From positions 1-27,110 of the IMG/VR virus record IMGVR_UViG_3300046167_000590: a DNA stretch of 27,110 nucleotides. One strand, 5' to 3'. Both the position numbers and the translations under genes were made by a program. Below are positions 18,514 to 25,468 of the stretch, piece after piece. Within the stretch, counting starts at the first letter, position 1; each line of letters starts with the position of its first letter. Origin of the DNA: a virus. The notes beneath the pieces are model-generated. The model was not told the origin of the DNA, did no database searches, and saw only the letters and a program-made list of their open reading frames with translations.

Positions 18514-19659
18514 TTAATAAGCTACATCTAATCTTATTACACCGAAGTCTTCATTCTGACCAGAAACGTCTGAATGGTAAACTGGCTTCTTAAGACCAAA
18601 TATCTTACCTATTGAAATACCATTTTGGTTGCCATAGTCAAATGTGTCTTCAACTATTTCTGGCACACCGATGTCAGCCATCGCTAGTGCTTGTGCACCT
18701 GCAAAGATACATGCAGAACCATTGACATCAGCGTCAGCTCCCCATTTGTATCCAGCTGAACCAGCATTTGATGATGTTCCAGTAGTAGCTCCGTTTGTGT
18801 TAAACACATGTCTGAACTCATGGATCATAATACCGTCAACCATTAGGCTTGAAGAACCTGCGAATAAGCTTGAACCTGGTCCTCTTACTCCAGCTTGTCT
18901 TACGTTAGCAAGGAAGTCTGAATCAAGTTTTAGGTCAGCCATAACTTGAGGTGTCACAAACAAGTGATACGTCTCGTCATTTCCAGCTCCTCTTAAACCT
19001 CTAATGTAGTTGTCTTTAGCATAAGCTTTTAAGTCAACAAGTGCGCTATAGCTAAGTTTGTCAGCTGCAGCAACTGCAGTAACATCACCAGCTACAATAC
19101 CATTAGTGGCATCGAATCTTCTATGTCTATTAGAAGTTGGGGCTGTTATATCCGATCCAAACGCTAGATCATTAAGGTTTTGTCCTGAGTTCATTACAGG
19201 TCTTAATGCGCCATTGTTTTTAAGGCTATAGCCTACTCCACTTAGAGTTAAGAATGCTAATTGGTCCATTCTGTCAGCCATTGCGTAAGCAAGTGCGTCT
19301 CTTGAATGTTCCCTAAAGTTCACAACAGATTTTTGATCAGCCAATCTACCAGATAGTCTGTTCGCGAATCTTAATTGATCAAGTTGTACAACTATGTCGT
19401 AAGCTCTTAGTGCCTCTTCATTACCTTCTAAAGTATTGTCACCAACGATACCGTCACCAGTCATGTCAGCTAAAAGTGTTAATACAGCTCTAGCTCCTTT
19501 TTCTGATTGAGTAAGCTCAGATATTCTCTGAACCATTGCGTTAGATCCGCTACCTGCGAATTGGTTAATGAAAGACATATTTCTTGCAACACGCCAAAAA
19601 TCTCTAGACCAGATCGTTAATTGTTCACTGGTTAGAGAAGCAAAGTTAGTATTTGCCAT
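18514..19659 (-). CDS. Major capsid protein, N4-gp56/DUF4043-like (381 aa)
   Basis: The main shell protein. The conserved region of the N4-gp56-type capsid family is visible: an N-terminal helix with LTIWSRDFWRVARNMSF (about 13-30), NAMVQRISELTQSEKGARAV (40-59), the TGDGIVGDNTLEGNEEAL loop (67-84), and the QLDQLRFANRLSGRLADQK helix region (92-110) leading to RDALAYAMADRMDQLAFLTL. The C-terminal part includes a VTPQVMADLKLDSDFLANVR spine-like helix and VDGIMIHEFRHVF. Length is normal for this HK97-fold family. It has the strongest translation start in the window (AAGGAG, 8 nt before ATG), in line with the most abundant product. It follows an unusual structured leader and is followed by a hairpin. 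The scaffold lies directly upstream, as in other phage head modules. Confidence 0.92.
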   Translation of the reverse strand: MANTNFASLTSEQLTIWSRDFWRVARNMSFINQFAGSGSNAMVQRISELTQSEKGARAVLTLLADMTGDGIVGDNTLEGNEEALRAYDIVVQLDQLRFANRLSGRLADQKSVVNFREHSRDALAYAMADRMDQLAFLTLSGVGYSLKNNGALRPVMNSGQNLNDLAFGSDITAPTSNRHRRFDATNGIVAGDVTAVAAADKLSYSALVDLKAYAKDNYIRGLRGAGNDETYHLFVTPQVMADLKLDSDFLANVRQAGVRGPGSSLFAGSSSLMVDGIMIHEFRHVFNTNGATTGTSSNAGSAGYKWGADADVNGSACIFAGAQALAMADIGVPEIVEDTFDYGNQNGISIGKIFGLKKPVYHSDVSGQNEDFGVIRLDVAY

Positions 19660-19667
19660 GATAATAT

Positions 19668-19673
19668 CTCCTT
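19668..19673 (-). promoter_or_regulatory. Ribosome binding site of the major capsid gene
   Basis: A full AAGGAG lies 8 nt before the ATG at 19659. It is not covered by any hairpin I found in the leader, so initiation should be accessible unless a longer-range pairing forms. Confidence 0.85.
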
Positions 19674-19679
19674 ATCATT

Positions 19680-19865
19680 AAAGTTTAATAACCAGTCGAC
19701 TTTTGGAGCGACTTTTATCCGTATACCCACTATCGTGCGGGAAACGCTCTCGTAAGTTACGGGTACGAATCCGGTCAGTTTAACGCCATGACGGGCGAAA
19801 ACGATTTTTTACAGGAACGACCCTGGTCAATTATCGTATTGACGGACGAACTTATCTAATTTATA
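19680..19865 (-). ncRNA. Candidate structured leader RNA of the capsid mRNA, with internal duplication
   Basis: The 213-nt gap between scaffold and capsid genes is far longer than other gaps in this operon and holds no ORF. On the transcribed strand it folds locally into a series of short hairpins (plus coordinates): 19826-19843 (6 bp, loop ACGATA), 19812-19825 (4 bp, loop GTCGTT), 19784-19797 (4 bp, loop CGTCAT), 19759-19775 (5 pairs with one mismatch, loop ATTCGTA), 19726-19741 (5 bp, loop ACGATA again) and 19694-19713 (5 bp). Two roughly 51-nt units are sequence repeats: 19840-19850 matches 19789-19799 at 10 of 11, and 19809-19830 matches 19757-19778 at 16 of 22 without gaps. I do not recognise a named RNA class. 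Function is unknown; control of capsid translation or RNA processing is possible. Confidence 0.55.
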
Positions 19866-19872
19866 CCACAGT

Positions 19873-20901
19873 TTATCCGAAATCTCCACGCATTCTACGT
19901 AAAGTTTCATCGGGTAAAGCATTAAATTCATCAGAAGATAGCAAATCCACATCTACTTTTTTCTCAACTTTGTTCTTTCCTTTTAAAGCAGGTGGTTGTG
20001 ATTCTGCGGCTTGTAATTTTTTCGTAGTATTAGCTACTTTTTTCTTTTGTGCAATTTGTGGGTCTACTTTAGGAGCTGATGGTGCTTCTACAGGAGAACC
20101 CATAACATATTTACTAGCTTTATCTAATGCGTCTGCACCAGAAAAACCCTGTACCATAAAAGCATCTCGTAAATCTAAAACTTCTTGCGTTTTAACTTCG
20201 TCAAAACTTGCATGCGTTTCATTTAACTCAGGGTATTTTGTTGCTAGCTCGGCTGCTTTAGTCTGAAGGGCCATAACTTCTGTGCTTTGTTCAACAGTTT
20301 TACCCATTTGGCTTTGCACTTCAAACATCATTTGTTCTTTTTCTGCCTGTCTAATTTCTTTTCGTAAGCTAGTAGCTTTTTGAGACTCCCCGTTTAACAC
20401 ATGTTCTTGATACTCAACTTCTTTTGCATCAAAATCGTACTCGGGTGACTCTGAAATTGTTTGTACGGGGTTAGTAGCTTCTTCTAGTTTTTTAGCTAAT
20501 GCTTTTTGTTTTGCTAAAACTTCATCGAACCTAGACTTGGGTATCATTGGCTCCTTTGGCGAGTCAACTTCTTCCGGTACTCTTCCTTCAAGCTGTTGTG
20601 TATCTGCGTCATCTTCTGCCAATACTGTTTCTTCTCCTGAATCTTCTGCGACTTCGTCTGTAGCTTCAATATTTTCTGTTTCTGTTTCCTCTTCAAGTTC
20701 TTCTGTTGATTCTTCTTCAGCTTTAAGTTGCTCGACTTCTTCAATTTCTTCCTCCTTGGGAAATTCTACTTCATCATCCTCTACAGCAGATTCAAAATTC
20801 ATATCTACTTCAAAAGGTTTACTTTCTTCTTCGCTTATTGGGTCCGCCCCTGGCATAGTTTCAAAAACTACTTTATCATCCGTTTGGTTATCTTTTGCCA
20901 T
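19873..20901 (-). CDS. Capsid scaffold protein (342 aa)
   Basis: An acidic, mainly helical protein between portal and capsid genes, the classic scaffold position. Residues 20-120 are extremely Glu/Asp-rich (EEEIEEVEQLKAEEESTEEL). The middle is coiled-coil-like (SRFDEVLAKQKALAKKLEEA; LRKEIRQAEKEQMMFEVQSQ). The C-terminus is basic then hydrophobic (QIAQKKKVANTTKKLQAAES; DEFNALPDETLRRMRGDFG), the part expected to bind the capsid protein. It begins 14 nt inside the portal gene with a strong ribosome binding site (GGAGG). The protein would direct procapsid assembly and then leave. The sequence is diverged, as scaffolds usually are, so the call rests on composition and order. Confidence 0.85.
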   Translation of the reverse strand: MAKDNQTDDKVVFETMPGADPISEEESKPFEVDMNFESAVEDDEVEFPKEEEIEEVEQLKAEEESTEELEEETETENIEATDEVAEDSGEETVLAEDDADTQQLEGRVPEEVDSPKEPMIPKSRFDEVLAKQKALAKKLEEATNPVQTISESPEYDFDAKEVEYQEHVLNGESQKATSLRKEIRQAEKEQMMFEVQSQMGKTVEQSTEVMALQTKAAELATKYPELNETHASFDEVKTQEVLDLRDAFMVQGFSGADALDKASKYVMGSPVEAPSAPKVDPQIAQKKKVANTTKKLQAAESQPPALKGKNKVEKKVDVDLLSSDEFNALPDETLRRMRGDFG

Positions 20902-24742: not shown

Positions 24743-25039
24743 TTAACACTTCCAGCGTCTACGCGCTTGTCTAATTCTTGAATTTGGATCATTTCTAGTT
24801 TTAGCAGAGCTTCTTTTAAGTTGTCCTGCTGACCTAGCGCAATAAGATTTACGTCTTTTTGCTGCTTTTGAACCTTTTTTAACTTTTCCTGTAACCGCGG
24901 TCTTTAACTTAGAACCGGGGTTCGCTTTTCTGTATGCAGCAACGCCTTTTTTGGTCATTCCTGCGCCAGATTTGGTTTTTCGGTAATTACCGCCTTTTCC
25001 TGTTGTTTTTCTTATTGCTTTTGCTGGTTTTCTTGGCAT
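24743..25039 (-). CDS. Small basic protein (98 aa), common marine-virus type
   Basis: Very basic, ending in Trp-Lys-Cys. It contains GGNYRKTKSGAGMTKKGVAA, then AYRKANPGSKLKTAV and KAAKRRKSYCARSAGQLK. I recall this pattern from small conserved proteins of uncharacterised function in many phages and environmental viruses (possibly DUF6321, unverified). No enzyme motif or membrane helix is present. Its first 53 nt overlap, in another frame, the Lys/Arg-rich end of the 102-aa gene. Its place between the terminase subunits suggests a role near packaging or on DNA, but this is inference. Confidence 0.8.
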   Translation of the reverse strand: MPRKPAKAIRKTTGKGGNYRKTKSGAGMTKKGVAAYRKANPGSKLKTAVTGKVKKGSKAAKRRKSYCARSAGQLKRSSAKTRNDPNSRIRQARRRWKC

Positions 25040-25295
25040 AAGTTCTCACATTTGTTGGTTTTCCGCCTACTCCTTGGGCTTTAGACCGTTTTCTCTTAAC
25101 AGCACTCTTCTTTTGTGCTGCAGTCATACCTGCTGCTTTGGCTTTTGGTACGCATTTTGGGTATCCTTTGCGTTTTGTTGACGCTTTTTTCCTACCGCAG
25201 GGTGCATGACCTCCACCTTTCTTCTTTCTACCTATATCAACCCATTTTTCGCCGAACCATTTAGTTAATCCGCCTTTGGGTTTACTAGTAGCCAC
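24987..25295 (-). CDS. Small basic protein (102 aa) with conserved KWFGEKWVDIGRKKKGGG motif
   Basis: The N-terminal half, GGLTKWFGEKWVDIGRKKKG followed by APCGRKK and YPKCVPKAKA, is a strongly conserved pattern that I recall from small proteins of marine phages and large algal viruses; its function is unknown to me. Two Cys (CGRK and KCVP) could bind metal together with His. The C-terminus is nearly all Lys, Arg, Ser and Asn. It starts with GTG, whose G is the last base of the preceding TAG (TAGTG), so translation is by termination-reinitiation. The last 53 nt overlap the following gene. Confidence 0.8.
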   Translation of the reverse strand: MATSKPKGGLTKWFGEKWVDIGRKKKGGGHAPCGRKKASTKRKGYPKCVPKAKAAGMTAAQKKSAVKRKRSKAQGVGGKPTNVRTYAKKTSKSNKKNNRKRR

Positions 25296-25468
25296 TATCT
25301 GTAGCCTCCGCCCCTCGCTTTATAAGTCTTAGTTAGCCAACCTGAAGCATATGCAGACGGCCAAACTTTATATTTACGTTTTGCTTCTGCTTTAACTCTA
25401 GAATATAGAGCTGGGTTAGTGGGCTTGGCCCCGCTTTTCTTTTTGGCGGGCTTTTTCTTTACTGCCAT
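25295..25468 (-). CDS. Small basic protein (57 aa) with NPALYxRVK...GGGYR motif
   Basis: A short protein: MAVKKKPAKKKSGAK, then NPALYSRVKAEAKRKYKVWP, SAYASGWLTKTYKARGGGYR. The helix-turn style pattern 'NPxLYxRVKxEAKxKxxVxPSAYAxxWLxxxYKxRGGxYR' is one I recall from phages and large eukaryotic algal viruses, so this is very probably a real gene despite its size. It begins at the ATG sharing a base with the preceding TAA (TAATG) and ends at TAG sharing a base with the next GTG. Likely nucleic-acid or capsid associated by charge; no function is known to me. Confidence 0.8.
   Translation of the reverse strand: MAVKKKPAKKKSGAKPTNPALYSRVKAEAKRKYKVWPSAYASGWLTKTYKARGGGYR

Follow-up and report, generated by a model that had tools for sequence, protein, structure and literature searches.

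The locus raises the question of why a single long gap should stand in front of the major capsid gene within an otherwise tightly packed block of virion genes, and what the RNA transcribed from it might do. Among the late products of tailed phages, the capsid protein is the most abundant, and the control of its mRNA is known for few of these phages. The DNA analyzed here (the window) is a stretch of 27,110 nt from a marine bacterial virus (IMG/VR record IMGVR_UViG_3300046167_000590). Its minus strand carries the genes for the small and large terminase subunits, the portal, an ORF in the scaffold position, the capsid, and further virion proteins. The capsid gene (18514-19659, minus strand) matches PHROG 334 (major head protein) and Pfam Phage_capsid_3, and the ORF ahead of it (19873-20901, minus strand), which has no PHROG match, is assigned as scaffold by position. 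The 213-nt gap between the two (19660-19872, minus strand) is the sole long one, since the other neighboring genes overlap or nearly touch, and it had rightly been singled out as an operon outlier in the initial annotation, a reading of the letters of the window whose coordinates and letters proved correct on inspection. Small ORFs that are very rich in lysine and arginine lie between the terminase subunits (24743-25468).

The initial annotation saw in the gap a modular structured RNA made of short hairpins. To examine homologous leaders, capsid homologues were collected from viral contigs; their complete scaffold-capsid gaps measured 208-230 nt, and all could be aligned. For 89 non-redundant leaders, covariation was assessed with an R-scape-like test in which null columns were simulated on the leaders' own tree, with a cut-off of E<=0.05. 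Eleven column pairs passed, so that the proposal is not refuted, and the comparison strongly confirmed a conserved, modular RNA ahead of the capsid gene. Ten of these pairs are Watson-Crick pairs (three each in stems P1 and P2, and one each in P3, P4, PK-A, and PK-C). The remaining pair, at the base of P6, is non-canonical. The hairpins are real, as homologues carry compensatory changes in P1, P2, P3, P4, and P7, and P6 is supported by one pair (UA besides CG).

Nearly all of the hairpin loops pair with a neighboring single strand across the 89 leaders. It is highly probable, as judged from sequence comparison, that the leader RNA strings together six H-type pseudoknots (PK-A to PK-F); to our knowledge, six consecutive pseudoknots in one leader of a bacterial virus are unusual. 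Pseudoknot contacts, which had been offered as one possibility, thus turn out by covariation to be the main feature of the RNA. The complementarity of ACGA and UCGU on which that suggestion was based is genuine, but the partners are adjacent single strands and not the loop of the neighboring hairpin: the P1 loop pairs with the upstream UUCGU, and the P4 loop with the downstream UUACGA. Kissing loops between neighboring hairpins are accordingly not supported, as the covarying partners form H-type pseudoknots.

The modules are of two types. In PK-A and PK-E, an upstream strand pairs into the hairpin loop, whereas in PK-B, PK-C, and PK-D the loop pairs with a downstream strand. PK-A (19826-19850, minus strand) joins UCGU (19849-19846) to the P1 loop ACGA (19837-19834) over the stem P1 (19843-19838/19831-19826); its pair 19846-19837 covaries significantly (UA in 51 and CG in 33 of 89 leaders), and its remaining three pairs are invariant. 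PK-B (19802-19825, minus strand) has the stem P2 (19825-19822/19815-19812), and its loop CGUU (19819-19816) pairs with 19805-19802. Its downstream strand reads A(U/A)CG, which leaves a U.U mismatch in the window and its own group, and single lineages carry the compensations CAGU/ACUG (L352), CGCU/AGCG (L159), CGAU/AUCG (L062), and CGGC/GUCG (L284). PK-C (19774-19797, minus strand) consists of the stem P3 (19797-19794/19787-19784) and the loop GUCA (19792-19789) paired with UGAC (19777-19774), and this pseudoknot also occurs in KPP25-like, Acidovorax, Paracoccus, and streptococcal phages. In PK-D (19750-19773, minus strand), with the stem P4 (19773-19770/19763-19760), the loop UCGUA (19768-19764) pairs with the UUACGA side (19754-19750); GC is replaced by AU in 9/89 leaders and UA by CG in 7/89 (UCAU/AUGA, UCGC/GCGA).

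PK-E (19726-19746, minus strand) would pair CGU (19746-19744) with the loop ACG (19736-19734) over the stem P6 (19741-19737/19730-19726). It is unproven, because all three pairs are invariant and thus beyond the reach of covariation. P6 itself is nearly invariant, with two pairs fixed in 89/89 leaders and a third that is CG in 80, UG in 4, and UA in 3. The significant non-canonical pair at its base, 19737/19729 (A.A, U.U, C-G), is perhaps a tertiary contact in PK-E. PK-F (19694-19720, minus strand) pairs GGA (19720-19718) with the loop UCC (19707-19705) over the stem P7 (19713-19709/19698-19694), in which 6 independent paired double changes were found; its third pair is AU in 40, GC in 42, and GU in 7 of 89 leaders, so that GGA/UCC interchanges with GGG/CCC.

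This structure also sorts out the two related units that had been noticed about 51 nt apart. By eye, all of the letter matches are present (10/11 for 19850-19840 against 19799-19789, and 16/22 for 19830-19809 against 19778-19757), as are ACGATA at 19736-19731 and GTCGCTCC at 19712-19705. In the second match, a module does recur, PK-B and PK-D being of the same type. The first is a mere letter match between structurally unlike elements, as GUCA is a stem strand in PK-A and a loop in PK-C. What looked like a duplication is a repetition of pseudoknot modules.

Over a 51-sequence alignment (A2), the complete fold pairs 93.8% of cells, compared with 31-41% for slid structures, and 32/49 pairs have changed on both sides; none of 500 shuffles matched any measure. 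By parsimony, 126 paired double changes fall on the tree, and 40 of these affect pseudoknot helices (PK-A 3, PK-B 5, PK-C 23, PK-D 6, PK-F 3). A scan that needs no alignment and looks for H-type pseudoknot chains gave a mean z of −3.9 for 27 marine leaders, −2.0 for 49 KPP25-like leaders, and about 0 for coding controls, and the commonest geometry in the marine scan was S1 4, L1 2, S2 6, L2 0, L3 2. Folded as a single sequence with nested pairs, the region does not stand out (z = −0.44), as nested folding cannot represent pseudoknots. An alternative from RNAalifold, in which the UUCG of PK-A pairs with a far-downstream CGGA, was dropped as the main fold because the PK-A pair 19846-19837 covaries significantly. 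Also ruled out was a helix between the CUCC of the P7 loop and the GGAG of the Shine-Dalgarno sequence, since leaders with a CCCC loop keep that GGAG while GGA changes to GGG. The leader is not explained by a short ORF either: the frames are interrupted or out of register, and the gap length (208-230 nt) does not vary in threes.

Directly ahead of the RNA lies an extended −10 promoter element, TG-TGG-TATAAA (19860-19868, minus strand). Comparison places this element at a fixed distance: the best extended −10 starts 16-22 nt upstream of the UUCG in about 86/88 leaders and at −18 in 55/88, and the −35 region of the marine group is weak. We infer that transcription starts 2-5 nt ahead of PK-A. 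Downstream, an A+U-rich stretch separates PK-F from the capsid Shine-Dalgarno sequence AAGGAG (19668-19673, minus strand), which lies outside every conserved pseudoknot. In the window, a perfectly paired 7-bp hairpin, AUGAUAA-GGAGAUA-UUAUCAU (19658-19678), also holds the Shine-Dalgarno sequence in its loop, and only close relatives keep this hairpin.

We put at about even the chance that the major capsid gene has a transcript of its own and that the RNA is its 5' leader, which shields the mRNA and/or enhances translation; for the shielding or enhancing mechanism taken by itself, our confidence is slightly below even. Transcription would begin a few bases ahead of the first pseudoknot, from the extended −10 promoter where the scaffold gene ends. 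The RNA would immediately fold into six compact H-type pseudoknots strung together like a rod, and the short A+U-rich stretch with the ribosome-binding site would come next. The string would most likely serve as a 5' shield against end-dependent decay by pyrophosphohydrolase/RNase E or RNase J, and as a spacer that keeps the ribosome-binding site free of long-range pairing. The outcome would be a long-lived, strongly translated capsid mRNA that is presumably independent of the upstream packaging genes, and the leader probably helps the virus to produce coat protein in sufficient amount and when it is needed. If transcription read through from upstream, the RNA would end up mid-message, and a shield for the 5' end would count for less.

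The position of the RNA is fixed among its relatives. A covariance model of the marine six-pseudoknot capsid leader (R1) found one copy in each of 75/75 relatives, always before the capsid gene; in the window, it gave a single match (166.7 bits), immediately ahead of the capsid gene, and no further copies. A pattern derived from PK-E matched in capsid leaders only: where the contig carries a capsid homologue, all 109 matches fall 70-99 nt upstream of it. The same pattern had two true matches in 84,980 prokaryote genomes, both on contigs assigned to bins of Proteobacteria and Neomarinimicrobiota. The RNA is common to hundreds of related viruses, and a simpler form occurs in very different phages. 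On two contigs (L354 and L355), the marine RNA and the capsid gene are binned within metagenome-assembled genomes of Proteobacteria and Neomarinimicrobiota, which is a weak hint at the host.

An RNA that acts in trans (in packaging, or as a decoy for an endoribonuclease defence like a type III toxin-antitoxin system) and merely adjoins the capsid gene would profit from abundant late transcription, which would yield much of it. Type III antitoxins are indeed pseudoknotted RNAs (PMC8058203). However, in these RNAs the pseudoknot repeats are near-identical and a toxin gene follows, whereas the modules in the window are unlike one another and the next gene encodes the major capsid protein; no Rfam match to an antitoxin RNA was found in the window. 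In every lineage, the RNA lies in the sense orientation immediately before capsid or scaffold genes, and no terminator is seen between it and the capsid gene. We consider a trans-acting RNA very improbable.

The leader of KPP25-like phages extends the comparison. Their capsids are 60-74% identical to that of KPP25, which is in turn 54.5% identical to that of the window. R1 had eight matches in these phages (86 sources, 518 kb), seven along the capsid leader and an eighth covering 38 nt of it. The order PK-A, PK-B, PK-C is retained, and full compensations occur, for example UUGCAG/CUGCAA versus UCACAG/CUGUGA. A GGAG/CUCC hairpin in these leaders had been taken for PK-F, wrongly, as the covariance model places it at P2/PK-B. 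The isolates AP1, KLEP18-1, and KPP25 have recognizable candidate pseudoknots of the same kind, with whole-leader scan scores that are singly not significant, and they bring the leader within reach of bench work. The evolutionary support for the six pseudoknots of the marine leader is strong enough for compensatory tests to be designed directly. In Paracoccus phage KLEP18-1 (L086:711-1289) and Rhizobium phage RHph_Y1_10 (L363:553-1128), HNH endonuclease genes lie directly ahead of the capsid gene.

The KPP25-like leaders lie downstream of a sigma-70-like promoter, with a terminator ahead in 12/49 (0.4% in shuffles). This bears on RNA-mediated processive antitermination, in which the nascent pseudoknots would modify RNA polymerase for read-through of the long structural operon (about 19 kb downstream). 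HK022 put and the Bacillus subtilis EAR are structured leader RNAs that act in this way, and the RNA of the window does stand at the start of a long late operon. However, the position in the window is all that is consistent with this reading, and the terminator of the relatives lies upstream, where the RNA cannot act. We consider antitermination improbable.

The number of modules differs between lineages while the position is kept: marine leaders have six, KPP25-like leaders about two or three, and those of Firmicutes phages two or one. Such variation suits a structural rod more than one binding pocket. It also speaks against a ligand-binding riboswitch, for which compact pseudoknots, being common aptamer folds, might otherwise argue; there is no shared unpaired core and no visible expression platform, and we give this reading hardly any credence.

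The main rival to a shielding or enhancing leader is a protein operator, in which an RNA-binding protein of the phage or host (capsid, scaffold, single-strand-binding, or ribosomal protein) would bind the pseudoknots and repress or activate capsid translation. The loop bases UUCG, CGAUA, UCGU, and ACGG are strongly conserved, and this could be a sign of specific protein recognition rather than shielding; most of them lie within pseudoknot helices. Moreover, in the cousins BcepIL02, Parlo, PEp14, and LASTA, a gene for a CsrA-like RNA-binding regulator lies between the scaffold-side ORF and the capsid gene (L360:1009-1203, L361:975-1157, L362:949-1140, L087:1142-1351; Pfam CsrA confirmed in 2/4), in the place held by the pseudoknot RNA in the window, which points to post-transcriptional control of the capsid gene. 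No excess of pseudoknots was seen in Parlo, PEp14, or LASTA, and BcepIL02 was borderline. A precedent exists in the leader of T4-type gene 32, whose pseudoknot is bound by gp32 and is possibly the only viral pseudoknot in translational autoregulation (PMC3014915). Like the leader of the window, it is a pseudoknot in a phage mRNA upstream of the start codon, with an A+U-rich stretch before the ribosome-binding site (PMC3014915); however, it is a single pseudoknot before the gene for a single-stranded-DNA-binding protein with demonstrated autoregulation, whereas the window has six, before a capsid gene. Against an operator, the ribosome-binding site is not hidden by any conserved pairing, and an operator usually keeps one site, whereas the module number here varies by lineage. 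We regard the protein operator as unlikely. A role in translation, processing, or protein binding, as had been proposed for the RNA, would be plausible.

No Rfam family matched in the window, where a DUF2815 RNA match (15.5 bits, E=3) was judged to be chance and no tmRNA or tRNA-like element was found by ARAGORN or Rfam; no report of this RNA was found in the literature covered, which included few subscription papers. The statement that it belongs to no known class holds for the window in this sense, but one known family is built on a similar plan, and streptococcal phages connect the two. GP20-b (Rfam RF03003, cis-regulatory) is likewise a leader; the genes that follow it are those of the phage scaffold (Phage_scaffold, formerly GP20) and capsid. 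It differs in having two pseudoknots, not six, in belonging to another phage group and capsid family, and in preceding the scaffold gene, whereas the RNA of the window follows the scaffold-position ORF and precedes the capsid gene.

A chance-level BLAST match (E=0.7) pointed to streptococcal phage IPP16, which has a copy of PK-C and a PK-D-like pseudoknot in the gap directly ahead of its scaffold gene. Streptococcal leaders carry two such pseudoknots ahead of the scaffold-capsid operon. Relatives of IPP16 show compensations in the stem (CGCC/GGCG, CGAC/GUCG, CGUC/GACG) and in the second pseudoknot (CGUC/GACG versus CGUU/AACG). R1 matched IPP16 with E=8.2e-7 and Javan215 (L393) with E=1.2e-5 in 29 kb of preselected sequences, for which these E-values are flattering. 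Javan215 in turn matched GP20-b with 21.9 bits, under the gathering cut-off of 36.2 (E=0.0039 in 91 nt and 0.46 in 10.7 kb).

The Rfam model of GP20-b is printed as two hairpins without a pseudoknot. In the chain scan, the GP20-b members L418 and L420 carry H-type pseudoknots of the PK-C kind, which in L418 reads ACGCC-CC-GGGCC-GGCGU-AAAAG-GGCCU and is followed by a second pseudoknot with a UAAAAA linker and then the Phage_scaffold gene. We therefore find that members of GP20-b, too, appear to be tandem pseudoknots. Their linkers (UAAAA/UAAAAA) compare with UAAAAAA in PK-B and UUAAAC in PK-C of the window, which has four further pseudoknots. R1 had no match on the GP20-b members fetched, and GP20-b had none in the window at the gathering cut-off or up to E=10. 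The streptococcal leaders may thus bridge the marine RNA and GP20-b through matches below threshold. A generic PK-C pattern matched in 14 of about 790 Firmicutes genomes; the bare pattern is not evidence, because there was no excess over a reversed-pattern control. Matches in L368, L371, and L373 were judged to be chance, as the complementarity of loop and downstream strand was absent by eye.

The RNA of the window thus seems to belong with the structured leader RNAs of phages, as a variant not previously in Rfam. We raise only tentatively, as possible and somewhat doubtful, the idea of an old superfamily of capsid-operon pseudoknot leaders, built of one to six interchangeable H-type modules, that spans unrelated tailed phages of Gram-negative and Gram-positive hosts, includes GP20-b, and would be a common decay-resistant or ribosome-recruiting 5' device for the mass production of capsid protein. 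If true, the link would supply the orphan Rfam family GP20-b with a fold and a testable function and would widen its host range.

Other known systems share single features with this RNA. The T7 gene 10 leader consists of a stem-loop and a short enhancer and, unlike the leader of the window, has no string of pseudoknots. It is a capsid-gene leader that raises expression, and the enhancer has been described (PMC8748333). STAXI RNA is a tandemly repeated pseudoknot, as is the RNA of the window, but it accompanies DNA-handling genes, and the window has no Rfam match to it. The upstream pseudoknot domain (UPD) in the 3' UTR of plant viruses (SBWMV UPD-PKb and others) is also built of short H-type pseudoknots, and the streptococcal PK-C-like element GCGUUAAACUGU gave a sub-threshold match to it, far under the family cut-off; the domain lies at the 3' end of plant RNA virus genomes, and common descent with the phage leaders is not implied. 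Finally, a second, different tandem pair of H-type pseudoknots was observed in the last 150 nt before the streptococcal scaffold gene (L399, L402, and L406-L410), with no convincing Rfam match and with compensations such as GUCUGUG/UACAGAC versus UGUCACA/UGUGACA.
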